A stretch of 64,000 nucleotides of DNA from Lotus japonicus (lineage: Eukaryota > Streptophyta > Magnoliopsida > Fabales > Fabaceae): positions 48,939,096 to 49,003,095 of the forward strand of contig NC_080045.1 of NCBI RefSeq assembly GCF_012489685.1. The letters are read 5' to 3'. The notes under the pieces are model-generated. The model did no database searches and was not told the DNA's origin. It saw only the letters and a list, made by a program, of their open reading frames with translations. Shown here in pieces: positions 21,401 to 62,864 of this stretch. A program made the translations under genes and the position numbers. Positions within the stretch are counted from its first letter, which is position 1. Each line of letters opens with the position of its first letter.

Positions 21401-24400
21401 CATCACACTCGCCCTCCAATTGATCTGGCAAATCTGCTTCTGCAGAGTAGTCCCCAATCGCCTTCTTGAGCAATGACACATGAAACACAGGATGAACTCG
21501 CGATCCTTCTGGTAAACGTAACCTGTAAGCCACCGCACCCACACGAGCCACGATAGGATAAGGCCCATAGTATCGGGCTGCCAGCTTTGCATGAACCCGG
21601 GTTACTACAGATTGTTGACGATGTGCGCGAAGCTTCACAAAGACCCATTCCCCGACAGTAAATGATTTTTCAACCCGCTTAGTGTCAGCTTGTGACTTCA
21701 TTCGACCCTGGGCTCGCAAGAGTTGTGCCTTCAACTGGCGCAGAACCTCATCTCGATCAACCAATTCACGTTGCACTGCGTCAACCCTGGTCTCGCCGAG
21801 TCCCCAACGTGTGATTGCTGGGGGTTTGCGTCCATAAACAACCTCGAACGGGGTCATATGTGTGGCTGAGTGGTAAGATGTATTGAACCAATACTCAGCC
21901 CAATGGATCCAAGTTGCCCACGTTTTAGGTTGATCAGCCGAAAAACAACGCAAATACGTTTCCAAACAGCGATTTACGACTTCCGTTTGTCCATCCGATT
22001 CGGGGTGGTACGCGGAACTCATATTCAACTGTGTGCCCTGCAACCGGAAAAGCTCTTTCCAGAAATGACTCATAAATACTGGGTCCCGGTCGCTCACAAT
22101 GGTTGAGGGAACTCCATGCAAACGTATGACTTCTTTGGCAAACAATTCAGCGATGCTCTTCGCAGTATAGGGGTGCTTCAGCGGAATGAAGTGACAGAAT
22201 TTGGATAGGCGATCCACGACCACTAGCACTGCCTCGTATCCCCTGGATTTAGGTAGGCCAGTTATGAAATCAATCGAGAGATCTTCCCACACCTGATTTG
22301 GGATGGGTAGAGGCTGCAGCAAGCCTGCGGGCGATGAGGCCATGTACTTTTGTCTTTGGCATGTATCACAGCTACGAACAAACTCTTGCACCGTGTTCTT
22401 CATGCCTACCCAATAGATGTTGGCCGCGAGCCGCCGATAGGTGCGGAGAAATCCGGAGTGCCCGCCATGTGGGGTGGCATGAAATTCCTTTAACATCTGT
22501 GGAATTAGAGAGGAAGTATGTGACAAAACCAGCCTCCCTTTGTACAACAGAATCCCCTGCTGTAGACTGAATTCCGGATGAGTTGATGGGTCATTTTGTA
22601 ACTCCATGATCACATGCTTAAGTTTTGCATCCTGCTGAACCTCTGTTGCTATCAACTGGTGATCTTCCCAGCGCGGGTACGTGCACACGGTCCTGATCTC
22701 ACCATATTCCCCAACGCGCGATAGCGCATCTGCTCCCTTATTTAACTTCCCAGGTTTATAAACGATATCAAAGTCATACCCCAATAGCTTCGCGGCCCAA
22801 TTCTGTTGTTCCCCAGTAATAATCTTTTGATGGAGCAACTCTTTAAGACTCTTCTGATCAGTAGACACCAGAAATTTCCGTCCCAATAAGTAAGGACGCC
22901 AATGCTGTATCGCCAAAGCTACTGCCATAAGCTCTTTCTCATAGGCGGACTTAGCGAGGTTCCGTGGTCCTAAGGCCTTGCTATAGTATGCTATGGGTTT
23001 CTTGTCTTGCATCAAAATCGCCCCGAGGCCACACCCTGACGCATCACACTCAATTAGGAATTCTTTCTCAAAATCTGGAAGTGCCAAAACAGGGGCCGTT
23101 GTGAGCTTCCCTTTTAGAGTTTCAAATGCATTTTGTGCTGCAGCTCCCCACTGAAAAGCATCTTTCTTTGTCAAATCTGTGAGTGGCCTTGCTATTTTCC
23201 CATAATCCCGAATAAATTTCCTGTAGTAACCGGTTAATCCAAGAAAACCTCTCACCCCTTTTACATTCTTGGGCACGGGCCAACTCTTGACACTCGCCAC
23301 CTTGCTAGGATCAACCGCCACTCCCTGTGCTGAAATCAGGTGCCCCAAGTATTCCACTGAGTCTTGCGCAAACTGACATTTCTTCTTGTTTGCTGTCAAG
23401 TGTTGCTGTTGGAGGAGTTGTAAGACCTTCTCAAGATGCAATAGGTGCTTTTCCCAATCGCTGCTATACACTAGAATATCATCAAAAAATACAAGCACTC
23501 CCTTCCGGAGCATGGGACGAAAAACTGCGTTCATCAAACTCTGAAACGTCGATGGTGCGTTCATGAGACCGAACGGCATTACGAGGAATTCGTAGTGCCC
23601 TTCATGGGTACGAAATGCCGTTTTATGCACATCCTCTGCCCTTACGCGAACCTGATGATACCCCGACTTGAGATCAAGCTTTGAGAAAAATTTAGCACCA
23701 TTCAACTCATCGAGCAGCTCTTCAATTACAGGAATGGGAAACTTATCAGGGACTGTTACCTTATTGAGTGCGCGGTAATCCACGCACATACGCCATGACT
23801 GGTCCTTCTTCTTGACCAAGAGCACTGGACTGGAGTAAGCGCTTGAGCTATGTCGTATGATGCCGGCTGACAACATCTCCTGAACCTGCCTTTCAATTTC
23901 ATTTTTATGGGTATGGGAATAACGATATGGTCTGACGTTGACTGGTCCCTGCCCTTCCTTTATGTTGATACAATGCTCTTTGCCTCGACTCGGGGGTAGC
24001 CCCTCCTGAGCTTCAAACACACTGTCATACTCTTGCAACAACTTCTGCAAGCTTTCCTGTTGCGCTGCCTCTAGATGCTGACCTTTGGGAACCTCATGCC
24101 GGTGCTCCAAGAGTCCAAACGCTAGCTTGCTGTCAAGGTCAGACCTTCTCAGGATGCTTTGCAACGCCCCCATGGAACTTACGCCAGCACTAAGACCCTG
24201 TAGCCTTACCCACTGTGTGCCGTGCCAGAAACTCATAGTATGCTTTCCCCAATTAGCAATTGTATCTCCCAACGTCTTGAGCCATTCAATTCCTAGCACA
24301 ATATCAGGGCCTCCCAGATCAAACAAATGGGGTGTGCACGAGAACTTGTAATCCCCAATCTCCAGGTCAAGCTCCTTACACTTACCTCTGGTGTGAGTCT

Positions 24401-28279: not shown

Positions 28280-31200
28280 TTAATTCAGAATACTCTCAGC
28301 AGATACAATCTTCAGCTTCTTACACAAAGCTGCAAACCTCTCAGGCCTTAATGGCTTTGTAAACATATCTGCAAGCTGGTCCTCAGTTGGACAATGAACC
28401 AACTCTAGTTTTCCTCTTGTGACTTGGTCCCTCAAGAAATGAAAACGAGTCTCTATATGCTTACTTCTTCCATGAGCCACAGGATGCTTGGCAAGATCAA
28501 TAGCTGACTTATTGTCAACCAGCAACTTCATAATTCCAGAAGTTCTCAGTCCAATTTCCTCCATCAATGTGTTAATCCATAGAGCTTGACAAGCACCAAA
28601 TGAAGCTGCAACATACTCAGCTTCACAAGATGAAAGTGCTACTATTGGCTGCTTCTTGGAACACCACGAGATTGGTGCATCACCACACAAAAACACATAG
28701 CCTGTAGTACTTTTCCTATCATCTTTGTCTCCACTCCAGTCACTGTCGACATAACCTGTGACTTCCTTCTTCACATTGTAAGCCTTTCCTGGAAACAACA
28801 CACCATGACTAAGGGTTCCTTTAATGTATCTAAGTATCCTCTTGGCAGCTAGATAATGAGACTCTTTAGGATTCTCCATAAACTTGCTCACAAGTCCCAC
28901 ACCATAGCTAATTTCAGGTCTACTACAACACAGATACCTTAAAGAACCCACTAGTTGCTTGAACAATGTAGAATCAACTGACTTCCCAGTATCTGCCTTA
29001 GTCAGAACAGTACCACACTCCACTGGAGAAGTCACAGCATTACATTCAGCTAGATTAAACCTCCTCAATACCTCAGCCGCATACTTCCTTTGGCTCATGA
29101 AAATTCCTTGCTTAGTCCTGAGAAATTCAATTCCCAAGAAAAATGAAAGCTCTCCCATGTCACTCATTTCAAATTCAGATTCCATCTTCCCCTTAAATTC
29201 AACTATCTCATCTTCACTGCTCCCAGTAACCAAGAGATCATCCACATATAGACACACTATGATCATTCCAGTGTTCTTTGATCTCTTGACATATACACCA
29301 TGCTCAGAGATGCATTTTACAAATCCCAACTGATTCAGAAAACCATCAATCCTCTTGTTCCATGCTCTAGGAGCCTGCTTGAGTCCATACAAAGCTTTAT
29401 ACAACCTATAAACCTTGTGCTCATCACCATTAACCTCAAAGCCAGGAAGTTGTTGGACATATACCTCTTCATCAAGAGGTCAATTGAGAAATGCAGATTT
29501 AACATCGAGCTGATGCAACCTCCAATTCTTAAGACTAGCAGTAGCAACAACCATCCTTACAGTTTCCATTCTGGCCACAGGAGCAAAAACATCAGTGTAG
29601 TCAAGCCCTTCCTTCTGTTGAAAACCCCTTGCTACAAGCCTGGCCTTATACCTAGCTATAGAGCCATCTGACTTTAACTTGGTCTTATAGACCCATTTCA
29701 CAGAGATAGCCTTCTTCCCTTTTGGTAAATCAACAAGACTCCAAGTCTTATTCTTCTCAATAGAACCAAGCTCTTCCTTCATAGCTGAGATCCAATTATC
29801 ATGATGAAAAGCCTCTTCAACACTCACTGGCTCAATCTCAGCATTCAAAGCTAGATGAACCAGATCACCTTCATGTGTAACCTCATTGTCAGGAAATAGC
29901 ACATAGTCATCTAACCTAGCAGGCAAGTGTCTTGATCTTTGAGTCCTCTGAACCACATTACCAGTAGGAAGATTCACAGTTCCTTGTACAACTGATTCGC
30001 CTGATCCTTCATTCACATCTGTTTCAGCATCAGGTAACAACTCAGGAAAATTAAACTGAACTTTTGCACTGGATCCCACTATTTCATCATCAGGCCAATC
30101 CCATGTTGTTTCTTCATCAACAACAACATCTCTACTAATGATTATACCATTTGTCACAGGGTTAAGTAGCCTATAAGCACCTGTAGAGTGATACCCCACT
30201 AGAAGTAGCTTCTCACTCTTGTTATCCAGTTTCTTCCTCCTTTGATCTGGCAAGTGTCTATAACACACAGATCCAAAAACCTTAAAATGTTTCACAATTG
30301 GCTTCAAACCTGTCCAAGCTTCCTCAGGTGTCAAAGACTTCAATCTTTTGGTAGGACACCTGTTGAGAATGTAAGTGGCAGTAGATACAGCTTCACCCCA
30401 CAGTTTCACTGGTAACTTCTTGCTACTCAACATACTTCTCACCATGTTAGCAATAGTTCTATTCCTCCTCTCAGCCACTCCATTATGCTGAGGAGTATAT
30501 GGAGCTATTATTTCATGATAAATTCCAGCTTCTTCACAAAATGCTTTCATCTCCTTTGAAACATACTCACCTCCACCATCTGTTCTCAGGGTTTTTATGC
30601 TTCTACTACTTTGCTTCTCAACTAACATTTTGAACTTCTTAAAAATCTCAAACACTTCTGACTTTCTGGTTAGTAGATAGGTCCACATTTTCCTAGTGTG
30701 ATCATCAATAAAAGACACAAAATATCTATTACCACCTGATGACACAACCTCAAAAGGTCCACACACATCATAATATACTACATCCAATGCATCCTTAGAA
30801 TTCACTGGCATACTCTCATGAAAAACATTTCTAGGCTGCTTGCTCAATAAACAACCTTCACACAACTGACCAGAGACCTTTACCAGTGGAAGACCCTTCA
30901 CCATATCTTCATTATGGAGCTGATTCAAGCCTTTGAAATTCAGATGACCATATCTGAGATGCCAAAGCCTATCCACATTTGAAGTACTTGCTTTCATACA
31001 CTGTGCATCACTAGTGTTAAGATCAACCTGAAAAGTCTTGTTTGTTGCCAATGCTGATCTCAAAATCAACCTATACTTTGGATCAAACACTAACAAATTC
31101 TTCCCTTTAGTCTTCAATGAATAGCCTTTCTCAACCAACTGCCCTAGGCTAATCAAGTTATGTTTCACACTGGGAACATACAACACATCTGTGATAAATG

Positions 31201-32446
31201 CTTGTTTTCCATTCTTCTTTTTGATAAGAATCCTTCCAATACCAGTTGATCTAATAGTGCTATTGTCAGCAAACCTAACACTACTAGATTTCCTCTCATC
31301 CAAGTCAACAAACCACTCTTTGTGACCAGTCATATGAGATGAACAGCCTGAGTCTAAGTACCAGGTGTTCTCATCAAGCATGTGAGAACTAACAGCAGAA
31401 TTTACAACTTCACTACCAATAAGGCTAGGAATTTGAATAAAACTACTACTAGATTCATCATCAGGGACAACAAACAATACCTGCTCACCATCTGATTCAT
31501 CATCTTCATGAGCAGAATAAGCTCGATCATCACCACTTGTCTTGTTACCCTTCTTCTTATTTTTGCATTCATAAGCATAGTGTCCATACTTTTTACATGC
31601 AAAACACTGAACACTCTTCTTGCTTTTTCCTTTCTTGAACTTATCTTTGTCCTGATTCTTTTCCTTGGAATCCCACTTCTTCTTGGATTCACCCTCATCC
31701 TCATGTGAAGACTGCCCAGAATCCTTGTTCTTCCAATTCTTCTCCTTGAAGGTCTTAGAGTTGCTACTCCACTTCTTCTTGCTGGTACCACCATGAGCAT
31801 ACAATGCTTGTTCAGTTTCTCTGTCAGACTCTCTCAGATTCAATCTCATTTCATGAGCCTCCAATGAACCTTGAAGCTCCTCAACCTTCATTGTATCCAA
31901 ATCCTTAGACTCCTCTATAGTAGTAACTATATGATCAAATCTTGTAGTCAAAGATCGAAGAACCTTTTCTACAAGCATTTGATCATTCATAGTCTCTCCA
32001 TTCGTCTTCATTTGGTTTGTCAAGGTCTGAAGTCGAGTGAAAAACTTAGAAATCGTCTCTGATATCTCCATCTTCAGAGCTTCATACTGTCTTCTGAGAG
32101 TCTGCAACTTGACCTTCTTCAATTTTGCCACACCTTCGTAGCTCTTGTTCAGAATATCCCACGCCTCCTTTGACGTTTTCGCCGCTGCAATTTTCTCAAA
32201 ATTTGCAGGGTTAACACACTGATGGATAATGAACAGAGCCCGCATATCTTTCTTCTTCAGCTCCTTATGAGCAGCGCTTTGCTCCGCCGTCGGTTCCGCC
32301 GGTAGAGCATCATACCCAGAAGTCACCATCTCCAGAACATCTTGAAACCCGAAGATGACAAGCATCTGGGTATTCCACCGTTCCCAATCACTCTTGCCGT
32401 CAAGAACCGGCAACGAAGCTGGGAAATTGCCATTCGTTCCAGCCAT
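28280..32446 (-). pseudogene. Copia gag-pol, one in-frame stop
   Basis: The frame starts at ATG 32446 (MAGTNGNF) and covers 1389 codons, broken once by TGA at 29480-29482. Gag carries a CCHC knuckle ([14 protein letters not shown]); the protease box is [13 protein letters not shown]. Integrase has the GHLNFKGL...CEGC zinc finger and a DDE core with [10 protein letters not shown]. Reverse transcriptase has YVDDLLVTG, and RNase H has YVDSDWSGDKDDRKST. The stop falls in the reverse transcriptase just after DVKSAFLN, and the same frame continues on the other side, so this is a point mutation and not a shift. Without readthrough this copy cannot make active reverse transcriptase. Confidence 0.93.
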
Positions 32447-32592
32447 CACCTTAAAAGAAGCGTCCACTTCCACCGGAGCTTCCAACGGAGCAAGCACCTC
32501 CGTTGTGACTGATTCACACTCCGCCGTAGATCGCCGTGCACGGGTGGTGGCTCACGTCGCCGGTCGCCGGATCGTGAAGCTCTTGATACCAC

Positions 32593-42942: not shown

Positions 42943-45900
42943 TCATGCTGGACAAAAGTCCATATTCAGATTTTTCATAATGAAATTAAATCTATCCTCT
43001 GCTAAGGGCTTTGTAAAGATATCTGCCCATTGATGGTCAGTATCAACAAACTTTAGAAGAAGTACGCCCTTCTGTACATAATCTCTAATAAAGTGATACT
43101 TTACCTCAATGTGCTTTGCCCTTGAATGCAAGATAGGATTCTTACTCAGTGAAATTGCAGCAGTGTTATCACAATAGATGGGGATATTGCTCTCTAGGAT
43201 TTGATAGTCCTCCAGCTGATGTTTCATCCAGAGCATCTGAGTGCTGCATATTGCTGCTGAGATATATTCTGCCTCTGCAATTGATAGTGCAATGGTTGAT
43301 TGCCTCTTGCTTGCCCATGAGACTAAGTTGCTTCCCAGAAATTGACAATTTCCAGAAGTGCTTTTTCTCTCTGTTCTATCTCCAGCATAATCAGCATCAC
43401 AATAACCTGAAAGCTTATACTCTGATGTTTTCTTATACATCAAGCCAAGGTTAGTGGTACCTTTCAGATACCTTAGGATCCTCTTAACAGCAGTTAAGTG
43501 GGTTTCCCTTGGATCTGATTGGAAACGAGCACATAAATGAACACTAAACAATATATCTGGCCTAGATGCAGTTAAGTATAGAAGTGATCCTATCATACCA
43601 CGATAGAGCTTCTGACAAACTTTACCACTTGCATCTTCTTTCTCCAGAATGCATGTAGGATGCATAGGAGTTTTAGCCACTGTTGAATCCAGCATATTGA
43701 ACTTCTTCATAAGTTCTTTAGTGTACTTGCTCTGATGGATATATGTTCCTTCTGGTGTTTGATCAACTTGTATTCCCAGAAAGTACTTGAGTTCTCCCAT
43801 CATACTCATCTCAAATTCAGCCTGCATCATCTTAGAAAATTCTTTGCATAGAGATTGATTAGCAGAGCCAAATATTATATCATCAACATAGATTTGCACA
43901 ATTAAGATATCATCTTTGTAAGTTTTGCAAAAGAGAGTTGTATCTACTTTACCCCTTACAAACTCATTCTCCAGAATGAATGAGCTGAGTCTCTCATACC
44001 ATGCTCTGGGAGCTTGCTTCAGACCATAGAGTGATTTCTTCAACTTGAACACATGGTTTGGGTTCTTCTCATCCTCAAAACCTGGGGGTTGATGAACGTA
44101 GACTTCCTCTGATATATATCCATTTAGGAAGGCACTCTTAACATCCATCTGATGTAGAATTATGTTGTGATTTACTGAGAAAGAGATCAACAGTCTGATT
44201 GCTTCTAGTCTTGCTACTGGAGCAAATGTTTCAGTGTAGTCTATTCCTTCTTGCTGGCTGTAGCCTTGAGCAACTAGCCTTGCCTTGTTTCTGACTACAT
44301 CTCCTTTCTCATTCAACTTATTTCTGAACACCCATTTTGTTCCAATTACATGGACACTCTCAGGCTTCTTCACTAAGCTCCAAACATCGTTCTTGGAGAA
44401 TTGATTCAATTCTTCTTCCATGGCCAGAATCCAGTCCTTGTCCTGAAGAGCTTCATCAATTGACTTGGGTTCAATTAAGGACACCAACCCTTTCAGACTA
44501 AGCAAGGTCTCTTCAGAGGGTCTGAAGGCTGATCTGGTTCTGACTGGTTCGTCTTTGTTGCCCATAATCAATTCCTTAGGATGAGCTGCAGTGATTCTGC
44601 TCTTCTTCAGAGTTTGTGAATCAGAGGGACCAGCTTCTTCTTCTGGATCATCTTCCTCTGGCTCAGCTTCCTCTGGAGCTTTGCCTTTGTCAGAAACATT
44701 AATGCTTAAATCTGCAAACTTTTCAACTAGCTTTGACTGGTCAGAGTCAAGCTTATCATCAAATCTAACATGAATAGATTCTTCAATAGTCTTAGCATCA
44801 GTATTATAAAATCTAAAACCTTTAGATCTCTCAGAGTAACCGAGTAATAGACATTTAGAAGACTTAGCATCAAATTTATGCAATCTATCCTTAGTATTAA
44901 GAACATAACAAACACAACCAAAAGGATGAAAGTAAGAAATGTTGGGTTTTATGTTCTTCCACAATTCATAGGGAGTCTTATTCAGAATTGGTCTCACAGA
45001 GATTCTGTTCTGAATGTAACATGTTGTATTTACTGCCTCTGCCCAAAAGTGCTTAGCCATGCCAGTTTATTGGAGCATGGTTCTAGCCATCTCCTGAAGA
45101 GTTCTGTTCTTCCTCTCAACAACACCATTTTGTTGAGGAGTTCTGGGACAAGAGAAATCATGTGCAATTCCATAGGAATCAAACAGACTCTCAAACTTGT
45201 CATTCTCAAACTCTCCACCATGGTCACTTCTGACACGCACAATCCTACAAGCCTTCTCGTTTTGCACTTGGGCTATGAAGGTAGAGAACACAGCATGAGA
45301 CTCATCCTTGCGGGTTAGAAACTTTATCCATGTCCAACGGCTATAGTCGTCAACGATGACCATCCCATATCTCTTGCCACCTATAGACTCAGTTTTCACT
45401 GGTCCAAACAGGTCGATATGCAGAAGTTCCAACGGCCTTGAGGTTGAGACAACATTCTTTGCCTTGAAAGGGACTTTAGTGAATTTGCCTTTCTGACATG
45501 CTTCACAAAGAGCGTCTGAAGAGAACTTCAGAGAGGGTAAGCCCCTGACAAGGTTTAGCTTACTCAGCTGAGAAATCTTTCTCATACTGGCATGCCCTAA
45601 CCGTCTATGCCATACCCACTGCTCTTCATTAACAGACAGAAGGCACTTCACATTCTGAGCCTCCAACTCAGATAATCTGATCTTATATATGTTGTTCTTC
45701 CTCTTGCTGTTAAACAGAACAGAGCCATCGATTTGACTTACAGCCCGGCAGGACTTTTGATTAAAGATAACATCATAACCCTTGTCAGCTAATTGACTTA
45801 TAGACAATAAGTTATGAGTTAAGCCGTCTACCAATAGAACATTATCAGTGCATGGACTACTGTCTACACAAATAGTACCAGTACCAACAATTTTACCCTT

Positions 45901-46047
45901 TTCATTTCCTCCAAAGCCAACTTCGCCTCCAGGCTTAAGTTTTAGCTCTTGGAACATACGCCTTTCTCCCGTCATGTGACGCGAGCATCCACTGTCCAGA
46001 TACCATGATTGGTGTTTCAGTGGAGCTATCAAGGATATCTGCAACAT
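42943..46047 (-). pseudogene. SIRE pol, one in-frame stop
   Basis: Protease ([13 protein letters not shown]), integrase (GHASMRKISQL...CEACQKGK and a DDE core with RVRSDHGGEFEN), reverse transcriptase (YVDDIIFGS) and RNase H (YCDADYAGDRTERKSTSG) follow in copia order. TAA at 45067-45069 interrupts the end of the integrase; the frame resumes directly after it. Pol is one nucleotide out of frame with gag, and the two overlap over 45935-46047. The reverse transcriptase and RNase H part (42943-45060) is open for 705 codons. Confidence 0.93.
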
Positions 46048-47842
46048 AGATAATCTTATCCTTAGGTACCCACTTTCTGGGTCCTCTCTTGTTAGTTACC
46101 CCAGAGGTTCTGATCACCTTGGGTTTCTCAACATGATAATGTAAAGGAATTTTTGCATGATATTTAGACATGGAGAAAGATCCCTTTTTGAGAGGGGGTT
46201 TAGCAACTTCAGCAGGTAAAGGATCAGGCAATATGGTACCAGAGGGAACAAAGCATTCATACAAAGATTTTTCTTTAGACGCAGAAGGCTCATTTCTAAT
46301 TGGTTTAGAATAGCCAATGCCATGCATTCCATTTCTGCTTACGCCATAGATCATTGACGCCATTAAGCTTCTATCTACGCTCTTAGCCAGGAATCTTTGA
46401 AAAGACTTTTCATACTTAGATTCATTTCTACAATCAGAGGCATCACAAGCAACTATTTCTTCCAACTTAGCAATCTGGTTCTTAAGCACAGAGTTAGAAT
46501 TGATCAAAGCATGATTATCATTTTTCAAATCAGAAATAATTTTCTCATGTTCAGAAAGAGTCTTTGAAGCAGCAGATAAGTCCTTTTTCAACCTCTTATG
46601 CTTAGACAATAAAGAATTATACTTATCCATAATATCAGACAAAGCATGTTTCAGTTCAGAGGTAGAGAAAGAAGCGAATACCTCATTTTCATCGTCTGAA
46701 TTAGGATCTCCTTCTGATTCTGAGTCAGAGTCAACAGCTTCCTTTGACTCTGCTCCTTTGTCTTTGACAATAGCCATGAGTCCTTGGACTTCACCGTCAG
46801 AGTCAACATCCTCTGACTCTGATTCATCAAATGTCACCATCAGACTCTTCTTCGTCTTGAGGTGCTTCTTTGGCTTCTTGTCCTTCTTCAACTTTGGAAA
46901 ATCACTTTTGTAGTGCCCTGATTCTTTGCACTCAAAGCATGTGACTTCCCTGATTGATGACTTCTTCAGGCCTGAGGACTCATACTTTCCTTTGGCCTTT
47001 CCAGAGCCTCTGTACTTGCTTTGCTTGTGCTTCCAGATGCGGTTGAGTCTCTTAGAGATCAGAGTCAGCTCATCTTCATCAGAATCTTCTGATGCTTCTT
47101 CAGATTCTTCTGCTTCAGCTTGGAGAGCCTTTGACTTCTCAGCCTTAGCCTTTTCAGATTTGGATTTCAAGGCTATAGACTTTTTCCTCAGATCTTGCAT
47201 CTCAGAACGCTTCAGCTCATGGCATTTCAGAATGCTAATGAGTTCTTCTAAACTCATACGCTCGACATCTCTTGTGAGCTCTATTGATGTCACTAAAGGC
47301 ATCCAGCTTTCAGGAAGACTCCTGATGACCCTTATGACATGATCTTTTGTAGTGTAGCTCTTGTTGAGAGGTCGTATTCCAGCTACAAGCAACTGAAATC
47401 TAGAGAACATTTCTTCAATGGACTCATTTGGCTCCATGATGAAGGATTCATACTTTTGGATCAAAGACAATGCCTTTGATTCTTTAACTTTCTTGTTTCC
47501 TTCATGAGACATCTTCAGAGATTCAAAAATGCCTTTTGCAAACTCACGATCTGTAATCTTCTGGTACTCTTCATAAGAAATAACACTTAGAAGAATTGCT
47601 CTTGCTTTGTGATGTTGTGAGTACAACTTCTTTTGATCTGCAGTCATCTCTGACCTTGGGATCTTCTTGCCTTCTTCATCAACTGGACGCTCATAGCCAT
47701 CCACAATAATATCCCAGAGATCTGCATCAAAACCCAGAAAGAAACTTTCGAGTCTATCCTTCCAGTATTCGAACCTTTGACCGTCGAACACAGGAGGCTT
47801 TGCGTTGTATCCATCTTTCTGTGTTTCACTGGTGGTAGCCAT
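45935..47842 (-). CDS. SIRE gag
   Basis: 635 codons from ATG 47842, 58 nt inside the primer site. The N-terminal capsid-like part begins with PPVFDGQRFEYWKDRLESFF and contains the ISYEEYQKITD and KSYTTKDHVIRVIRSLPESW segments of copia gag. Residues 302-315 are the zinc knuckle, but the last metal ligand is Phe in place of Cys (CFECKESGHYKSDF, codon 46898-46900). After it come an acidic region and a coiled coil (HALSDIMDKYNSLLSKHKRL). The frame ends beyond the start of the pol frame, so expression of pol needs a frameshift, or else one copy has suffered an indel. Confidence 0.92.
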   Translation of the reverse strand: MATTSETQKDGYNAKPPVFDGQRFEYWKDRLESFFLGFDADLWDIIVDGYERPVDEEGKKIPRSEMTADQKKLYSQHHKARAILLSVISYEEYQKITDREFAKGIFESLKMSHEGNKKVKESKALSLIQKYESFIMEPNESIEEMFSRFQLLVAGIRPLNKSYTTKDHVIRVIRSLPESWMPLVTSIELTRDVERMSLEELISILKCHELKRSEMQDLRKKSIALKSKSEKAKAEKSKALQAEAEESEEASEDSDEDELTLISKRLNRIWKHKQSKYRGSGKAKGKYESSGLKKSSIREVTCFECKESGHYKSDFPKLKKDKKPKKHLKTKKSLMVTFDESESEDVDSDGEVQGLMAIVKDKGAESKEAVDSDSESEGDPNSDDENEVFASFSTSELKHALSDIMDKYNSLLSKHKRLKKDLSAASKTLSEHEKIISDLKNDNHALINSNSVLKNQIAKLEEIVACDASDCRNESKYEKSFQRFLAKSVDRSLMASMIYGVSRNGMHGIGYSKPIRNEPSASKEKSLYECFVPSGTILPDPLPAEVAKPPLKKGSFSMSKYHAKIPLHYHVEKPKVIRTSGVTNKRGPRKWVPKDKIIYVADILDSSTETPIMVSGQWMLASHDGRKAYVPRAKT

Positions 47843-47914
47843 TGTTTTTCACACCGGCCCGGATCACTGAACACTGTTAGGTGTGGTAATCAGAACTTGC
47901 GCTCTGATACCAAT

Positions 47915-54425: not shown

Positions 54426-54434
54426 CAATCCTTG
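54426..54434. repeat. MULE target-site duplication, left (CAATCCTTG)
   Basis: A perfect 9-bp direct repeat with 62737-62745, immediately outside the terminal inverted repeats. Confidence 0.92.
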
Positions 54435-54476
54435 GGGAGTTGGGTTTGGGGCCCCCCCTATGGGGCTCCCCGCCCC
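54435..54476 (+). repeat. MULE left terminal inverted repeat
   Basis: It pairs with 62695-62736. The first 19 bases match exactly, as does CCCCTATGGGGCT further in. Confidence 0.88.
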
Positions 54477-54514
54477 ACTTAAAGTGGGGAAATTACTGGA
54501 ACGCCCCCCTTTAA

Positions 54515-55026
54515 TAGAATACGGAAGCAACATTTCCGTATTCAATACGGAAGTCTTATATCCGTATTATATTAGTATGTAAACCGGCAAGGGTTTATTC
54601 AAACCCATTTCAAACTTCATTCCGTATTTTGCCAAACTCTTCTCCCATCTTCAACCTTCGATCTCTGTCGCTCCCCTTGCTTGAACCGTGTACTTGAAAG
54701 GTTCCATCATCTCCATCAAAGCTCTTCACAACCCCATTCTCAGAATTGAAACCTAGAGGTAAGGATTTTTGGATTTTCCCCATTTAACTTGAAATTATGT
54801 TAATCATTGAACCCTAGGGTAGTCGATTGTTGCTTGTGTAGAGGTATTGTTGGCTGAAATGTCTTGAATGTGGTTTGGGTTTAGGGCCGATAGCTCATTG
54901 TCGTTAATGGCGTTTCTGGGTAAATACGGATCACAGGTTTCCGTATTGAATATGGAAAATGGTTTTCCGTATTCAGTATGGAACATGGTTTTCCGTATTG
55001 AATACGGAAAAACGTTTTCCGTATTC
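54515..55026. repeat. MULE left subterminal ACGGAA/TTCCGT repeats
   Basis: Two clusters (54515-54570 and 54920-55026) hold about eight arms of the palindromic unit AATACGGAA...TTCCGTATT with 5-10 bp spacers. The same unit fills the right end at 62095-62225 and 62570-62665. Confidence 0.85.
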
Positions 55027-55295
55027 ATCTCAGAACCAAACCCAACACTTATAATTGATTCTGGGTTCAGAATCAATTATAGAAGGTTTCCAAAGCATTT
55101 GTGAGTAGTTTCTAGATGCCATAATTGATTATTAGGAAAATAAAAGTAGATCCAAGCATGCATAATCCACAGAAGATCCGATTATCATCTATGTACTTAT
55201 AAAATTCTAGGAATTTTCCATTTGCTTGCATCATGTTTCTGTCTATGGCTGAAATGGTATATATAGTGAATGTTTGCTCTGAATATATAGTGAGA

Positions 55296-57562
55296 ATGAA
55301 GAACAGAAAGAGGTCTCATGCTTCTAGTGAGGATGTCGGGGCTACTGAGGATAGACACCGGCGGTTACATGCTTCTAGCCGGCGCGGCGATCATGCTGCA
55401 ACCTCTCAGGCGGTGGAGGCTTCAGCTCCAGTTGTTTCTCCGCCGTCTCCCATGATTGAGGTTCCTCTGGTTGATTATCCGCCGTCTCCCACGGTTGAGA
55501 TACCTACAGTTGTTTCTCCGCCCTCTCCCATGGTTGAGTCCTCAGGCGAGGAGTCCTCAGGCGAGGAGTCTTCCGGCGAGAAGTCATCAGGCGAGGCCTC
55601 ATCCGGCATGGGAGGATCTGACGAGGATAGTATTCCTCCGCCTACTGTTGATGCTGATGTCCTGCCGCCAGAGCAGGGGGAGCAGGGGGCACAGGGTGGC
55701 GAGGAGGACCTGATCCAGAGGTTGCCGCCGTTTCCGGGGGGGCCTGTTGAGCTATCGCTCCTCACCCATTATGCTGATCACAAGGCTCCCTGGGCGTGGC
55801 ATGCACTCCTACGCACAAACGAGCGGTATGTGGACCGTCGACAGTTGAAGGTGGCCACAGCTGGGGGGAAGGTTTGGAACCTTGCTTGTGATGGTGATTC
55901 AGACAGTCACAGGCGGGTTCGAGAGTTGATTGAGCAGACGGGTCTTCATCAGCTACCCTATTGCAGCTACCCGGTGACAGATGCAGGCCTTATTTTGGCC
56001 CTTGTGGAGCGATGGCATGAGGAGACTAGTAGCTTCCACATGCCGTTCGGGGAGATGACTATCACCTTGGACGACGTGTCGGCTCTTCTCCATCTCCCCA
56101 TGGGGTCGAGGTTCTATACGCCTGGGAGGGGGGAGAGGGACGAGTGTGCAGCGCTCTGTGCTCAGTTGATGGGAGGATCTGTTGGTATTTATGAGGCTGA
56201 GTTTGATACGAATAGGTCCCAGACTATTCGCTTTGGGGTCTTGCAGACCCGGTATGAGGCTGCGTTGGCGGGTATGTCTTAATTATTATTGTATTGTCTT
56301 TGTATCTATTATTATTGTATTGTTATAAACTATTAACTTAATTCACTTCATTGTAGAGCACCGATATGAGGACGCTGCACGGATTTGGCTGGTGAACCAG
56401 CTAGGCGCCACGCTCTTTGTTAGCAAGAGCGGAGGCTACCATACGACCGTCTATTGGATAGGGATGTTGGAGGATCTTGGTCGAGTGTGCGAGTACGCGT
56501 GGGGCGCGATTGCGCTCGCTACGCTATACGACCAGCTTAGTCGAGCGTCCAGGAGGGGGACGGCCCAGATGGGAGGTTTTAGCTCGCTCCTGCTAGGATG
56601 GGTCTACGAGTACCTTTCTGACCGCGTCATTATCCGTAGGGCGGATCCGGAGTACTCGCAGGACCAGCCTAGGGCGCGGCGGTGGGCTATGTCCCGGGTC
56701 GGGCATGCAGGCCTTGATGAGAGGCGAGTCATGCTCGATGAGCTGACGGTGGATGACGTTATATGGACCTCATTTGAGGACCATCGGGCTCATCAACCAC
56801 GGGATCCGAGGGCCATGTATTCTGGCTACATCCGGTCGCCATTTGGCCGTGTTGTTCGACGGCATCTACCAGAGAGGGTTCTGCGCCAGTTTGGCTTCAT
56901 ACAGGATGTCCCTCAACACCCCTCTGAGATCCAGACGTCTGGGTCCCTTGCTGAGACCGCAGATGCTGCCTTTGCTGAGTTTGCGCCGCACCTCCGCCCT
57001 CAGGGGATCCCCGCTACATATCCGGGAGAGGCTGTGGAGGATTACATGAGGTGGTACAGCGCTGTGTCCCATCGGTTCATCATCCCTGATGATAGGAGGG
57101 AGGAGTTCAGTGCAGTGGTAAGTTTGAATTTTATTTTCCATTCAATTGTGATTTTTTGTTCATGATATTTTATTTGTATCTAATGTATCTACATTATTTT
57201 TGCAGACTGTTATGCGTCGGGCCGTGGACTTGTTGGAGCAGTCACTCGAGGTGCCAGATGCTCCTGCAGAGGGCACGCATTCCCGATCCCTCACTGAGAG
57301 GGCGCTGGATCTTATTAGATCCAATGCCTTCATTGGTACCCAGGGGGTAGCCTTTGCTGCTGTCCGAGGAGCTAGAGCTGCAGGAGGCAGAGGTCGTGGA
57401 GACAGAGCGCGTGGAGGCAGAGGCCGTGGAGGCAGAGCCCGTGGAGAGGGTGCTCCTGCAGAGGGTGCTCCTGTAGAGGGTGCGCGTGGAGGCAGAGGCC
57501 GTGGAGGCAGAGCCCGTGGACCTAGAGGTCGTAGAGGGGCCGGTAGGGGTCGGGGCGAGTGA
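55296..57562 (+). CDS. Plant mobile domain (PMD) protein with RG-rich tail
   Basis: PMD proteins of the MAIN/MAIL1 family act in heterochromatin silencing and genome stability in Arabidopsis, and related copies are carried by transposons. Exons: 55296-56271, 56357-57117 and 57206-57562, all GT-AG, giving 697 residues from ATG 55296 (the frame is open back to 55233). Residues 1-150 are disordered, with EESSGEESSGE-type repeats. The PMD follows: LLTHYADHKAPWAWHALLR, then FHMPFGEMTITLDDVSALLHLPM and HRYEDAARIWLVNQLGATLF. The tail of the last exon is a run of GRGRGG/RARGG repeats, an RGG-like RNA-binding type of sequence. I find no frameshift or premature stop. Family call secure; the tail's function is inference. 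Confidence 0.92.
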
Positions 57563-57805
57563 TTGACTGTATATTTGTATATTTTTTTTGTATTTTTATA
57601 TTATGACATGTGACTCTTTGTATTAGGACTCTCTTTATATTAATCATGCTTTCTATTTTCACTCATTATATGCCGACTCTTGTATTGAAAAAAACCCGTA
57701 TAACTACACCGTAAATAATCAAAGGCAGGATAAGTAACATAAATAATTCATGGCAAACAGTTTAAAGGGTACACGAAATTATTCAGAAGCAACACGAAAA
57801 CAAAA

Positions 57806-58545
57806 TTAATCCTCAGTGATATCGATGAAGTCGTGGGGTCCGCTATCCTGTGGAAATACTTTGACTATGTTGGGCAACGTTATATTCAGATAACGAACAG
57901 ATTTACTCGGTGCAAACACAGCAACCTGCAAGTAAATTGCAAATTTAAAAGATTAATGCGTACTTGTTCAAAGGAAGCAAGATTAATGTTTAAGGTAATA
58001 GACCTTTTGGAGAACAAGAACAGATCCAACAGTTATGACATTCCTAAATTCCCCGTCAGTGAAGGCCTTGCGATGGACGCTAGCGTCAACGGTGCCCGTA
58101 GGGTCCTAAATCAATGCAATCGTGAGAGAAAATGAGACAACAAATTGACGGTTAAAGAAGCTGGACAAAAGCGAGCAAATACCTTGAGGGTAACTTTGGC
58201 ATCTCCGAAACCATTGGGAGTGCATGATTTAATAACAGCAACAACACTCTCTACTCTCTCAACATTCGTTGTGATTGTGCCCAGCGGAGTGGCAGATTCC
58301 ACCAATTGCAGGGCTGTAAGCCAAGCATTTGAATTGAAATCAGGATCGGTTTCGGTTGATCTGTCTTCGAGCGCACGCCTCACAAATTCTTGGGTCGGAA
58401 TGAGTAGTGTGTTAGGGTTGGATCTACGCCCATACATGGCAGCCTGGACGGCGCCAGCTGGCCCATGAATGAGAGGACGAGAGCTGCTAGAAGTGCTGCC
58501 TTGACGTTTGCAACGGCGGACTAATGCATCCCAGTCTTGTTCCAT
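57806..58545 (-). CDS. HROB/MCM8IP-like OB-fold protein carried by the MULE
   Basis: HROB loads the MCM8-MCM9 helicase during homologous recombination. Exons on the minus strand are 58183-58545, 58004-58105 and 57806-57925, giving 194 residues with correct phases and GT-AG borders. The start MEQDWDALVRRC is followed by GPAGAVQAAM and LIPTQEFVRRALED, short motifs found in plant HROB homologues, then NSNAWLTALQLV. The OB-fold comprises VVAVIKSCTPNGFGDAKVTL, KDPTGTVDASVHRKAF, VGSVLVLQKVAVFAPS and YLNITLPNIVKVF. These match the C-terminal domain of animal HROB block by block. Full-length HROB proteins are much longer, so this is a domain-only version. It ends 243 bp from the PMD stop and is convergent with that gene. 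Confidence 0.85.
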
Positions 58546-58727
58546 TGTTTTTTTTTATCTTCGAAAGCAAGACATGAAGAAAAGGATGAAGAAGAATAAA
58601 GAACCCAGAGAGATTTATAGCAGAATGGTCAAAAGATTTATGGTGTTTGGTGGATAATACAAGTGTGGTTGGGGTTGGTTGGTGGTAGATAGTAATGTCA
58701 GGTTTCAAGTTCGTCATTTAGTGGATG

Positions 58728-58855
58728 AAAATGACAAGACTCTGATGATGGGGTGGTTGGAAATGACAGGACTCTGATGATGGGGTGGTTGGAAATGACA
58801 GGACTCTGATGATGGGGTGGATGAAAATGACAGGACTCTGATGACAGAGTGGTTG
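58728..58855. repeat. 32-bp minisatellite upstream of the HROB-like gene
   Basis: Four copies of AAATGACAGGACTCTGATGA plus about 12 bp, with the last copy most diverged. It lies about 180 bp upstream of the HROB-like start codon. Confidence 0.88.
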
Positions 58856-59023
58856 TCTATGTTAATTATCCCTGATGCTGATTCAAAATAATAAGGCCCA
58901 TCAATATAAAAATGACCATCAAATTAATATTATTAAAAGCAACAAATGAACATCATAAAGGCAAGGCCCATCAGATTAATATTACAGAGCGTTTACAAAT
59001 GAATATCACACAAAAGTGTGGTG

Positions 59024-62000
59024 TCAATCTGAGGTGATGTCTACATAGCTTTGGTGAATAAGAGGAACACCAAAAGTAACAAGCCAAGCTTCGTATTCTG
59101 ATGTGAATCTTCCTAAACGTGTACCATATGGGGCGCACCAGCTTACTGATGTAGGATCAACATACCGTTCCCACTGGAGAGCAATTGGCGGCATAGAATG
59201 TCCAGGAGTTAGATGGAGCTACATTATAGAGAATAACAATAAAATTAGATAACTTGCAAATACAACAAATCAATTCACCAATTGGATATTAGTGTACTCA
59301 ATCAAAAAATACCTGTACAAAGTGATTAATCACATGACCAACAACTATAACAGGATGTACATCCGGTGGACCTTCTCCTCTTAGTGGAAGGTATGACCAA
59401 CAACCCGTAGAGGAGATGGATATGAAAACCACTTGGAACCTGGTTGCTACAAGGTATCCCATCTCTGGCAGTTGCATCCATTTATCCTCGGTAGCCGGAT
59501 CACCAGGAGGAAGAGTGAGTCGGGAATGTAAGGCATTAACCACATGTCTGGACCACATTTCATCATACAACCCTCTGTGTCGTTCAAGTTCTTCTAACAA
59601 CGCTGCCCTAACCCATGACCAACTTTCCTCACCTGATGGTAGTCCGAGTAATGCAGCAACGACTCTATAGCCACAGTTACCATCATCCTCAACATTCTGA
59701 ACTGTTTGTATATATGGGTGGAAAAAGGCTGGAAAATGACCCATGAAATAGCTTGTATCAGACTTCTTCACACGCTTCTTCTTCTTTGGTGGTTGTGAAA
59801 CCTTCTTTGCCTCTCTGATCTCCCTATCAACATGTTCAAAACCTGAAAGATCACGAGTCAAGGATCCTATTGCTTTATTCTTAGGTGGTATTTTCTCATT
59901 CGCCTTAAGAGTGCGCTTGGACCTTATCTTAACCGCAGGAGTACAAAGTGAACTGCTTTCAGGACAATAGATCGCTTGAAGCTTCCTCCTTACCATACTC
60001 TGCCCTCCAGTATCCAAAGAACTGAAATAATGTGTCAATGCCTCAACTTCTGGTTGCATATCTCCATGGTTCATGCCGCAAATATGGTTGCTGGTAGTAT
60101 CTGCAACAGGTTCAGGTACATGCTCCCAACTCAGTCTCTTCCAGAATGGATGAATTGACTCATATGGAATTCTTTCATAACCTGCAAGTTCACAAAAGTG
60201 TCACTTTCAATAACAAATAAAATTAATTGACAAGAGAGTGGTTGACCGGTGACCTGCAAGTTCACAACCGCAAGGTAGTCCATGAGTCTCTCTCAACAAG
60301 CAATCGCATCCGCCGTAGGACTTCATTCTTATATGTTCATCGTCGATGAGCTGCAGGCATTTGTTTGACACAAATCCTCTAATATTTGTGTAAAATGGGA
60401 ACATGAAAATGTGATCAATTCTGTGAATACTGCGCTCAAACGATGCTAATATTTCAGTATGTCGATTACATGTCAAACTATGCGACGCATCCCATGAAGT
60501 GGCCAGGTCACCCTTGCAATCCCGTAACATCTTCTTCAAACTGGCATGTGCACCCTCAGCCCTGCAAACAACAAATAGATATCTTATTAACAACAATCTA
60601 TCAAATGAACAAACAACGCATAAATTAAGCTCATGTAATTTTTTTACCTGTTACTTGTTGTTGTTCCAAAGTGCATCACATGATTTGTCCATGCCTTGGC
60701 GAATTTCTCCTTGTTAACCAACCATGTAGTAGAACAATAGGAGGTAAAGTTGCTGTATTTTGCCTTGCACATATTAAACAATTGCATCCATTTCACTTCA
60801 AATTCTTCAACTGTTGCAGCATCCACCACCTCTGCCCACTTCATCATAACCAACTCAGCAAAATCATCTGTGCCAACATAGAGTTTGCACTTTGCCAAAA
60901 CACACTTGTTGATGTGCCACAAGCATAATAAATGTGTAGTGTTAGGAAGGCTTTGCTTAGCAGCACTCAATAAGGCAAGATCCCTGTCAGTAACAATCAC
61001 CTTAGGCAACATGGCTTGATCAGCTAATAGAGACTTCATACACTCCAGTGCCCAAACGTAGTCATCTGTGCCCTCATTAACAATGTAGCAAAAGGCTATG
61101 GAGTATGTCTTATCTGTGGAAGTCAGTCCAACAATCTCAAGCAAGGGAATTGCATATTTGTTTGTCTTGTATGTGCAATCCATAATCACTACATATGGAA
61201 ATGTGTTGAACAGTTTGATAGCATTTGGATGAGCCCAAAATACATCCCTAATGACTTCCGATCCAGGCTCATGTCTTTCAAAGTGGACATACTTGTCACC
61301 GTCCAACTTCTTCAACAAGTGTTGCATTTCTGTCAATCCCCCGCGGAGGGATTTTCTTAACCTCTTGCAAACACCATAAATCTGAGATATGGTAGTCAAG
61401 TTTGAAGGATTGTTTTCCTTCAAAGTCAACAACATCTTTCTCGGTGGAACCCAACTCCTTGTCATTTTTCCCACTTGCTCCTTCTCTCCGGGTTTTAGAC
61501 GACCAACAAAATTGTGCCCAAGTAGTGACCTAGCTGGTTCATGGTTGTGTATACCTTCCATCACCTTTAGCCGCCAATCTCTATCTATGCCATTTTTCCT
61601 AGGTCGTCCTTTTAGTCTAAAAGGACAACCTGTCTTTTGTGATCTCGTCCCTTCAACAAGGTCAGGGTCTCTATAAGGAACATATTTACCATGCTTCTCG
61701 CACCCCAACATGACATAAGCTTTTCTGCTTCCATTCCCACCATAATCTGACTTTGTGATCAACGTAACATATCCATTTTCAATCGCAATTCCATGAACCC
61801 AATTGATAAGATCATCACGGGTAGGGAAAATCTGTTATAATAATAAGAATTGATTACAAGGGTGATCAAGACATAATAAGAATTGATATATTACACTCTC
61901 AAAACAATGCAAAAATATGTTCAAAGAATACCTGATCAGTTGCAAATAAATGCGAGACATCTATACTTATACACGGGGGCACAAATGCTGGTGGTGGCAC

Positions 62001-62084
62001 CTCTGTAGTGGCCTCTTCAGGTTGACCATTGTGAAATCCAGCTTCAATCAATTGTGACTCACCAAAGAAAAATGAATCTGTCAT
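59024..62084 (-). CDS. MULE transposase fused to an OTU cysteine protease domain
   Basis: Exons on the minus strand are 61932-62084, 60648-61831, 60254-60561, 59313-60181 and 59024-59218, giving 902 residues with consistent phases. Order: a FAR1-like DNA-binding region (about 52-165), then the MULE DDE domain with VVIMDCTYKTNKY (Asp 269), VTDRD (333-335) and LCLWHINKC. A SWIM zinc finger follows (CDCLLRETHGLPCGC, 531-545), a basic segment that may be a nuclear signal (PPKKKKRVKK), and an OTU domain at about 705-850. The OTU domain has the catalytic DGNC box (Cys 718) and a VINHFVQ block holding the His (835). OTU enzymes remove ubiquitin. The start at 62084 was chosen as the first ATG before PTRDDLINWV. 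Transposase call is secure; the OTU call is strong. Confidence 0.92.
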
Positions 62085-62094
62085 CCCTGGAAGA

Positions 62095-62665
62095 GAATAC
62101 GGAAAGTTACATTCCATACTCAATACGGAAATATACTTTCCATACCGAATACGGATTGTTACTTTCCATACTGAATACGGAAAGTACCTTTCCATATTCA
62201 ATACGGAAGATAACAATCCGTATTATATCACGACTCAGAATTCAAAAACCCATCCTTCTAACTACTTAAACTACTTAATCTAACTACTTAAACTACTTAA
62301 TCTAACTACTTCCACTACTTAATCCTACAAAATAACAACAAATAAACACATAGACTTACCTCTACTACAACACTTGTTGTAGTGGTGGAGAGCTTGGGAA
62401 ATGAAGGAGTGGATGGTGGTGGAGAGCTTGGGAATGAAAGTGAGGTAGGAGAGGGTGAGAGAGAGGGTGGTCTGGAGGCATTGAGGAGGTTCAGGGGGGC
62501 TGGTGAGGGGTTGGTGAAGGTTGGTGAGGGAGGAGTAATGGTGGAAAAAGGGGGAATCCTGTCAGAGTTAAATACGGAAAATACCTTTCCGTAGTCATCA
62601 AAATATAATACGGAAAGTACCTTTCCGTATTCAGTTAAATTGAATACGGAAAGTACCTTTCCGTA
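62095..62665. repeat. MULE right subterminal ACGGAA/TTCCGT repeats
   Basis: Clusters at 62095-62225 and 62570-62665 of the palindrome AATACGGAAA..TTTCCGTATT. The first cluster lies directly in front of the transposase start codon, where it could act in both binding and expression. In between (62230-62345) is a CTACTTAAACTACTTAATCT tandem repeat. Confidence 0.85.
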
Positions 62666-62694
62666 GGGCACTTTTGGGTTTAAAAAAAAAGGGT

Positions 62695-62736
62695 GGGGCG
62701 CGCAGCCCCATAGGGGAGGCCCCAAACCCAACTCCC
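62695..62736 (-). repeat. MULE right terminal inverted repeat
   Basis: Complement of 54435-54476 with a few mismatches, followed by CAATCCTTG at 62737-62745. Confidence 0.88.
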
Positions 62737-62864
62737 CAATCCTTGCACTCGGATAAGAGATAAATTAAATAGCTCAATTTGTCTTCCAATTTTATTTTTT
62801 AAAAAAAACTCCAACTATTTAAAAAGAAAAGGGGAAAAGTGGATAAGGGAGAAAGGAAACAGAA

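Follow-up and report, generated by a model that had tools for sequence, protein, structure and literature searches.

An intact 8.3-kb MULE of Lotus japonicus occupies positions 54435 to 62736 of the window (the whole 64,000-nucleotide stretch of DNA that was analyzed). Besides its terminal inverted repeats (TIRs) and the flanking target-site duplication (TSD), it contains a PMD gene, an HROB-like gene, and a gene for a transposase with an OTU-like tail (Table 1). The assignment to the MULE class is supported by the transposase domain PF10551, the TIRs, and the perfect 9-bp TSD, which lies within the class range of 8 to 11 bp. The borders had been described as unambiguous in the original prediction, and this was confirmed by the 41/44 identity of the TIRs together with the TSD. 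The 19-bp outer terminus occurred twice in the window at up to 3 mismatches versus 0.03 times expected in shuffles, and the AATACGG/CCGTATT motif of the subterminal arrays had zero occurrences in the middle of the element and zero in the remaining 55,698 bp of the window.

Table 1. Positions of the features of the element in the window
Feature	Position	Strand	Basis or remark
Left TSD CAATCCTTG	54426..54434		flank comparison
Left TIR	54435..54478	+	41/44 identical to right
Left subterminal AATACGG/CCGTATT array	54517..55027		11 in first 700 bp
PMD gene, exon 1	55296..56271	+	reading frame and Pfam
PMD gene, exon 2	56357..57117	+	reading frame and Pfam
PMD gene, exon 3, RG-rich tail at end	57206..57562	+	reading frame and Pfam
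HROB-like gene, exon 3, terminus FIDITED*	57806..57925	-	reading frame
HROB-like gene, exon 2 (OB-fold)	58004..58105	-	reading frame and Pfam
HROB-like gene, exon 1 (N-terminal part, OB-fold start)	58183..58545	-	reading frame and Pfam
Transposase, exon 5, terminus YVDITSD*	59024..59218	-	reading frame
Transposase, exon 4, OTU-like domain (DGNC ... NHF)	59313..60181	-	motif and profile matches
Transposase, exon 3 (SWIM-type cysteine region)	60254..60561	-	reading frame
Transposase, exon 2 (MULE RNase H-like domain)	60648..61831	-	reading frame and Pfam
Transposase, exon 1	61932..62084	-	reading frame
Right subterminal AATACGG/CCGTATT array	62095..62665		10 in last 700 bp
Right TIR	62693..62736	-	41/44 identical to left
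Right TSD CAATCCTTG	62737..62745		identical to left 9 bp

The three genes and their products

The exon borders of all three genes were placed by eye from the sequence alone. The introns are GT-AG and no internal stop is present in any CDS, in agreement with the predicted three open genes with correct splicing. The PMD protein (697 aa, 3 exons) matched PF10536 in Pfam (E 9.5e-49) and is encoded by a separate gene on the strand opposite to the transposase, with no fusion between the two. That PMD-bearing MULEs were already known is borne out by the literature (PMC5418596). The PMD-MULEs described there likewise unite a MULE transposase with a plant mobile domain, and the host-derived gene was proposed to be of help to the element; their PMD-C is described as fused to the transposase (grasses and Amborella), whereas the Lotus PMD gene is separate and convergent, and HROB is additional.

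The transposase (902 aa, 5 exons) has a complete reading frame and matched the MULE family PF10551 (E 8.2e-24). The cysteine region encoded by its third exon is one that we take to be SWIM-type. For the tail, no OTU family was matched in Pfam by the window's own transposase protein, and Peptidase_C65 Otubain was matched below threshold by 4 of 6 subfamily sequences (best E, 0.11). A profile of the OTU-like region gave 19 matches at E ≤ 10 among PDB sequences, the best of which (E 0.0049) was a designed protein. Sixteen of the 19 (E 0.03 to 1.1) are presumably OTU domains and were aligned on the DGNC motif where an alignment was shown; two of them are labeled OTUD5, one is labeled ubiquitin thioesterase, and the others are viral polymerase or replicase entries. 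The DGNC motif was invariant in all six subfamily rows and NH[FY] was present in five, the sixth row (L031) having ended at its stop, beyond which NHW can be read. The fold model of this region had a pLDDT of 33. On this weak evidence the tail is predicted to be of the OTU type. The deubiquitinase-like tail is not peculiar to this element: DGxCx[FYL]R was found in 67 of the 121 transposase homologues examined, and proteins of Trifolium subterraneum and Sesbania are already annotated as OTU. A search of the open-licence literature yielded no report of a MULE with OTU, one match on tomato microRNAs aside. ULP1 was matched by none of the three element proteins (Pfam, E up to 0.1).

The HROB-like protein (194 aa, 3 exons) matched PF15072 with 102.3 bits against a Pfam cut-off of 30.8 (E 1.4e-29). 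The model of a Lotus relative, P0001, which is 88% identical to the window HROB (pLDDT 71; blocks 91-180 all >80), matched OB-fold structures at E 8e-5 to 3e-4 with a query TM of 0.29 to 0.42; some of these structures are assumed by us to be OB-folds. A plant HROB profile compared with PDB sequences matched histone H3 in all of the best 60 of 136 matches at E ≤ 1 (best E, 0.015). Like host HROB/MCM8IP (C17orf53), the element's protein has the PF15072 OB-fold and its upstream region. At about 194 aa, it differs from the plant host protein in its transposase-like terminal tail, and the transposon (TE) copies aligned lack both the acidic N-terminal stretch and the host C-terminal half with its tail (...WTEEQLDELLAFD).

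The end of HROB resembles that of the transposase (FIDITED and YVDITSD, respectively), and subfamilies from either side of the tree of TE HROBs have this tail. In form, the terminal motif is reminiscent of a SUMO-interaction motif. The tail motif was counted in 19 of 42 cases, a figure that is descriptive only because the motif was formulated after the tails had been seen. Had the two genes been significantly similar in DNA at their 3' ends, this would have shown that the tail had been copied; the similarity was not significant, the best match (E 0.095; L029) being in register with the stop codon.

Copies of the element and linkage of the genes

The best 40 of 482 left-end candidates were 97 to 100% identical, and all 40 scored HROB exon 1 DNA matches had 98 to 100% identity; both sets include the copy in the window. 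Among 20 further copies that were read, 16 had 9-bp flanking repeats (at least 8/9 matching), each of them different, and five were of full length, four of which were free of stops throughout the aligned codons of all three genes. With an open transposase and near-identical copies, the element is a candidate for movement by its own enzyme. The original prediction had proposed a search for the same three genes in other copies, and in the Lotus genome all three were found in six divergent loci (52 to 92% protein identity), although in one of these (L030) only about half of the transposase was found.

The best 150 of 554 PF15072 candidates in the Lotus genome were scored, and all 150 exceeded the Pfam cut-off; a match above this cut-off was found in 0 of 14 control genomes. 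No stop was present in 131 of the 150 listed exon 1 rows (hand count). A HROB match was located 0.7 to 3.0 kb away in 81 of the 149 listed PMD rows, and in 81/81 it was convergent and downstream. This count rose from 65 to 73 to 81 of 149 as HROB lists were added, while 0.3 PMD-HROB pairs were obtained on average by random placement with a similar list (210 loci). A one-off capture, which the original prediction had named as its refutation, was rejected on the basis of the near-identical copies, the six divergent three-gene loci, and the convergent HROB in these 81 PMD rows.

A group of 35 PMD rows, 20 of which share one score, had no listed HROB neighbor in 34 cases. At the one locus of this group that was read (L036), PMD and transposase were present and exactly HROB was deleted. 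Since a PMD group apparently without HROB has been amplified, HROB was deduced not to be needed in cis. The proposal of a complete module held in that a MULE with PMD, HROB, and transposase-OTU exists, but not in the implied necessity of HROB.

Origin of HROB and selection acting on it

The HROB sequences of the transposons formed one clade (100/99). Its sister was the host gene of Lotus (97/93), and Sesbania followed with support that was not strong (86/77). Intron positions are common to the TE HROB and the Lotus host gene. Either side of the TE clade contains sequences with a MEQD start and a DITED/DITEE tail end, neither of which the host gene has. These data indicate a single capture from the Lotus host gene, introns included, probably after the Sesbania split. 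An ancient HROB as part of the MULE and several captures were both rejected, on the grounds that the TE copies in the tree group together next to the host gene of Lotus and that the tail and MEQD start are shared. The synonymous distances give no clean date, and recombination or uneven rates are possible, as the TE-host dS was 0.38 to 0.82 and the TE-TE dS was up to 0.98. The dS of the three genes differed within one element pair, so that exchange between families is possible. The combination of genes had been thought undescribed. This stands for HROB, as no transposon-borne HROB was found among the papers listed from the open-licence literature, but not for its companions, a PMD-MULE having been published and OTU tails already named. 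The new item is thus HROB, PMD and OTU-like tails in MULEs being already known.

The omega values show purifying selection on HROB between subfamilies. They ranged from 0.23 to 0.60, and of 20 subfamily pairs, 18 had an upper 95% bound of less than 1 (19 of 20 for the OB-fold part); they were obtained by NG86 only, exon by exon, and the 20 pairs share branches. Three of the pairs gave 0.5 to 0.6, two of them with an upper bound above 1, and the first 95 residues were less constrained (omega up to 0.73). The original prediction had asked for a comparison of copies, and among close copies of the element itself (7 copies versus the window, pooled), no such constraint on HROB was seen. Here the HROB differences were few (8.0 versus 2.0; pN/pS, 1.28) and had no synonymous bias, and the pN/pS was 0.54 for PMD, 0.58 for the transposase core, and 1.49 for the OTU-like region, the constraint on the last being the weakest.

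The within-family HROB differences would suit a Pack-MULE-like passenger that was picked up by chance, spread by hitchhiking, and has no role for the element, as would the thriving of the group seemingly without HROB and the commonplace capture of host genes by MULEs. This reading is weakened by the omega values between subfamilies, and the mostly stop-free exon 1 rows and the occurrence of the transposase-like tail in subfamilies from either side of the tree also speak against it; it is considered distinctly unlikely. Pack-MULEs share with the Lotus element the carriage of host gene sequence; they are without transposase and mostly carry fragments, whereas the Lotus element has its own transposase and an open, selected HROB (PMC13317346, PMC6446971).

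Possible role of HROB at the excision gap

We tentatively favor, at somewhat under an even chance, the interpretation that this intact MULE uses its captured and selected HROB to steer host MCM8-9 to recopy the element into the excision gap. The HROB protein would be made and would still bind MCM8-9; its retained parts are the OB-fold and the upstream region, which in human HROB contact MCM9 and MCM8, respectively (PMC11055865). It would then promote multi-kilobase repair synthesis, with the sister or homologue as the template for restoring the 8.3-kb element. In humans, HROB/MCM8IP is required chiefly for gene conversion involving 1.3 to 3.4 kb of new synthesis (PMC7290032). The tail common to HROB and transposase could bring both to one site, silencing or protein turnover may be counteracted by PMD and OTU, and long-tract gap repair at the excision site would turn cut-and-paste into net copying. 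The more specific form, in which HROB with its transposase tail is delivered to the gap, switches on MCM8-9, and has every cut repaired by recopying of the element, is rather doubtful. Several observations run counter to an HROB mechanism, namely, the amplification of the seemingly HROB-less group, the lack of synonymous bias of HROB among the close copies of the element, the three subfamily pairs with omega of 0.5 to 0.6, the weaker constraint on the first 95 residues, the host parts missing from TE HROB, and the unequal dS of the three genes.

On the supporting side, internal deletions were present in 14 of the 20 copies read, with 19 junctions. Microhomology of at least 2 bp was found at 11 of the 19 (versus 26.5% simulated; p 0.004) and of at least 3 bp at 8 (p 0.014), the chance level being taken from a simulation handled by an identical BLAST procedure. 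The excess at these 19 junctions was not significant for 4 or 5 bp. DNA transposons without HROB also commonly show internal deletions, which counts against the HROB mechanism. Maize MuDR has, to our knowledge, no HROB, PMD, or OTU. It likewise combines a transposase gene and an accessory gene (mudrA and mudrB), mudrB encoding a protein of unknown function (PMC6446971), and interruption of homology-directed repair has been given as the origin of its deletion derivatives (PMC10288884, citing others).

Without its C-terminal half, the element's HROB might instead be a decoy that competes with host HROB for MCM8-9 or another partner, diverting excision-gap repair or damage signaling from homologous recombination. 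The aligned TE copies fit this in missing the host tail and the N-terminal acidic motif while keeping the parts that contact MCM. However, the two mapped MCM contacts involve the upstream region and OB-fold, so a loss elsewhere predicts no inhibition by itself, and blocking repair would seem to be of little gain to a family that gains copies by repair. We regard a decoy as clearly improbable.

More doubtful still, and in our estimation a long shot, is that HROB, together with PMD and OTU, targets chromatin or silencing and not repair, like VANC in VANDAL, the subterminal arrays serving as the address. The arrays do vary between families, with ATTTACCG in L034 and AATACGG in L016, L022, L032, L036, and the window, but they may simply be transposase sites. 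MAIN/MAIL1 (PMD) function in silencing and an anti-silencing use by MULEs was proposed (PMC5418596), and VANDAL provides a precedent, while the excerpted HROB literature gives no chromatin role. VANDAL/Kaonashi (KIU) MULEs are likewise multigene, with an accessory protein and a captured domain of the ubiquitin-like-protease type, but they are non-TIR with ULP1 and VANC (PMC13317346). The Lotus element instead combines TIRs with an OTU-like tail and HROB, and its proteins gave no match to ULP1.

The copy gain of cut-and-paste transposons is usually credited to luck with host gap repair. A selected long-tract-repair gene together with a seemingly natural HROB-minus group would provide a direct test of the control of copy gain by the element. 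The approximately 200 HROB loci of one genome, in several diverged subfamilies, also represent an evolutionary experiment on the protein parts that matter to the element. We know of no earlier transposon encoding a factor that makes cut-and-paste transposition replicative; if the proposed recopying is true, this HROB would be the first.

Element structure and the window's own family

The Mutator-like element (MULE) had been predicted to have unambiguous borders and three open genes, and both points were borne out. The terminal inverted repeats are identical at 41/44 positions, the flanking 9-bp duplication is perfect, and the frames assigned to PMD (PF10536), HROB (PF15072) and MULE transposase (PF10551) contain no internal stop across GT-AG introns, with Pfam scores far above the cut-offs. 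AATACGG/CCGTATT occurs in 21 copies in the element ends and is absent from its middle and from the remainder of the window. The motif is family-specific, its place being taken by ATTTACCG/CGGTAAAT in L034, a locus fetched for comparison. An open frame with a serine-rich start (MGVATLSSSSS...) begins 120 bp past the right flank, and three long frames elsewhere in the window were labeled by eye as resembling plant LTR-retrotransposon polyproteins.

Features of the window and of other genomic loci
Feature	Location	Strand	Size	Flanking repeat
MULE	54435-62736		8302 bp	CAATCCTTG
PMD gene	in 54435-62736	+	697 aa
HROB-like gene	in 54435-62736	-	194 aa
Transposase gene	in 54435-62736	-	902 aa
Subterminal arrays	54517-55027, 62095-62665
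HROB N-terminal part	58183-58545
ATG of frame with serine-rich start	62865
Retrotransposon-like frames	21093-25823, 28283-32551, 42946-47848
Element without HROB	L036:282-7391 (C1:3.334-3.341 Mb)		7110 bp	CCTTTTCTC
Inverted-repeat pair enclosing a MULE copy	L032:262-9056		8.8 kb	ATATATATA
Host HROB gene	C4:83.446-83.448 Mb

The element had been described as carrying a deubiquitinase-like domain. For the transposase tail, the DGNC/NH(F/Y) motif and weak profile matches give a weak OTU label; no OTU family reached threshold in profile comparison. The best match in a PDB-sequence profile search was a designed protein, and the predicted fold model was of low confidence (pLDDT 33). Public protein names indicate that such tails are already known or widespread in MULE transposases. 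MULE transposases of the present type (P0051 and relatives) appear in public annotation as 'PKS-NRPS hybrid synthetase cheA-like', apparently a misnomer.

The window's family is young and large. In the genome (553.7 Mb, 65 contigs), the best 40 of 482 candidates for the left 205 bp, the window's own included, were all 97-100% identical, as were the best 40 of 262 for HROB exon-1 DNA (98-100%). The 20 best-scoring among the 39 other left-end copies were read, one (L027) being traceable for about 2.3 kb only. Flanking 9-bp repeats matching at 8 or more positions were present in 16, all different in sequence; 14 copies carried 19 internal deletions in total, and five were full length. In these five, the aligned codons of HROB and transposase were stop-free throughout and those of PMD in four.

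Linkage and constraint across subfamilies

PMD, HROB and transposase travel together beyond the window's own family. A one-off capture, with PMD or HROB absent from every other copy, would have counted against the original prediction. Seven further loci were chosen to represent separate identity groups among the HROB and PMD matches, and the six chosen for HROB (L029, L030, L031, L032, L034 and L035) all contained the three genes. Compared with the window across aligned exons, these six were 52-86% identical in PMD, 66-90% in HROB and 52-92% in transposase, and five had the window's gene order. HROB was stop-free in all six, while one or two transposase stops each were found in L031, L032 and L035 and three PMD stops in L035. 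L032 and L034 have perfect 9-bp duplications of their own; none was found within the fetched stretch for the other four. In L030 all three genes share one strand, about the C-terminal half only of the transposase was found, and its 186-aa open frame recurs in other match-list rows.

Genome-wide, at least 81 of the 149 listed PMD rows had an HROB match within 4.5 kb, a lower bound from the matches listed, and in all 81 it lay downstream on the opposite strand at 0.7-3.0 kb; when a similar list of loci was placed at random, such neighbors numbered 0.3 on average. The best 150 of 554 Lotus candidates for the Pfam HROB model all exceeded the cut-off, which was passed in none of 14 control genomes. 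Two merged HROB match lists comprised at least 213 distinct loci, one being the host gene.

The original prediction had also proposed comparing dN/dS between copies. Pairwise NG86 estimates with codon bootstrap were used for subfamily pairs, which share branches and are not independent; L031 and L034, whose HROB proteins are identical, were treated as one subfamily and excluded as a pair from the HROB comparison. HROB omega was 0.23-0.60 over 20 pairs, and in 18 of them its 95% interval lay wholly below 1 at the upper end (19/20 for the OB-fold part). The upper bound was likewise below 1 in 21/21 pairs for PMD, 20/21 for the transposase core and 13/21 for the OTU-like region. Within the window's family (seven copies pooled), PMD, the transposase core and the OTU-like region had pN/pS values of 0.54, 0.58 and 1.49, respectively; the HROB value of 1.28 came from 8.0 non-synonymous and 2.0 synonymous changes, too few to help. 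By these values, constraint on HROB between subfamilies is about equal in strength to that on the transposase, the OTU-like region being looser.

Origin of the transposon-borne HROB and its tail

The host has one apparently complete HROB gene; of the loci listed as matching the clover protein, it alone matched the C-terminal half. In a 33-row tree, the transposon-borne HROBs formed one clade (100/99), sister to Lotus host HROB (97/93); Sesbania branched next (86/77), and the remaining legumes fell outside. The transposon-borne gene retains the first two host introns (VTLK|DPTG, LLLQK|VAVF); intron 3 is retained in L029 and apparently in L030, and is missing from the window, L031, L032, L034 and L035. 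The simplest explanation of the tree and introns is that genomic DNA was captured once, within the Lotus lineage. The captured copies lack the host N-terminal WEGLDIDDSD stretch and C-terminal half. A Lotus gene model, P0032, fuses putative transposase exon 1 directly to HROB exons 2-3, possibly a chimeric transcript or deletion derivative. Artemisia has short HROB-like proteins in several copies, and Tanacetum a protein that combines a GRF zinc finger with HROB (P0034, P0035, P0040, P0042, P0046); these hint at a second multiplication of HROB, in Asteraceae. Weak histone H3 matches of the plant HROB profile (best E 0.015), in the helical part preceding the OB-fold, may be chance.

The transposon-borne HROBs end in FIDITED, FIDITEE, FIDITKD or FTDITED, and the transposases in YVDITSD, YVDITTD, FIDLGED or LTDITED; the L035 transposase tail was unreadable, and the L030 HROB tail was taken from near-identical P0006 (SFTNITED). 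The ends of transposase homologues in soybean, Vigna, Malus and Erythranthe include THYVDLNED, SYVDLGDS, VVDLEDD and CIDLADD, others being quite different. The last transposase exon aligned in 60 of 121 proteins, 42 of them with 40 or fewer residues left; a strict motif, written after the tails were seen, was terminal in 19 of the 42, against 0.12% at random cut points. The tail is thus a recurrent feature of the transposase family, and the captured HROB came to carry a like one, by copying or convergence, between which a DNA comparison did not discriminate. We take it to resemble a SUMO-interaction motif.

Possible role of HROB

In the excerpted text of PMC7290032, human HROB/MCM8IP is needed, via MCM8-9, chiefly for gene conversion with 1.3-3.4 kb of new DNA; in that of PMC11055865, the OB-fold contacts MCM9 and the preceding disordered stretch MCM8. 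The transposon-borne copies retain just the OB-fold and the region before it. MuDR deletion derivatives have been ascribed to interrupted homology-directed repair (cited in an excerpt of PMC10288884). Among the 19 deletion junctions in the copies read, microhomology of at least 2 bp was present at 11 (p 0.004) and of at least 3 bp at 8 (p 0.014), a modest excess that lost significance at the 4- and 5-bp thresholds. On these grounds we read HROB as a gap-repair helper that, if expressed, would raise the odds of regaining the complete 8.3 kb once the element has been cut out.

MULEs with PMD are already known (excerpt of PMC5418596); the likeness is PMD inside a MULE, and the present element additionally carries HROB. 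Transposon-borne HROB was not found in the open-licence literature searched, nor was OB-fold in the main text of a 2026 capture review. We file the element as a multi-gene MULE whose new feature is a captured, selected host recombination factor, PMD and OTU-like tails being known or widespread.

The L036 element is 79-80% identical to the window in PMD and, in transposase-OTU, 86-94% over the main exons and 75-88% over the end exons. Its gap (window-element positions 3308-4457) takes out HROB and spares all other coding sequence. It was the sole member read from its 35-row PMD group, in which 34 rows have no listed HROB neighbor, 20 of them sharing one identical score. This element and these rows argue against an essential role: HROB is not required in cis, and it may help in trans. 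L036 offers a natural control for the HROB-bearing elements.
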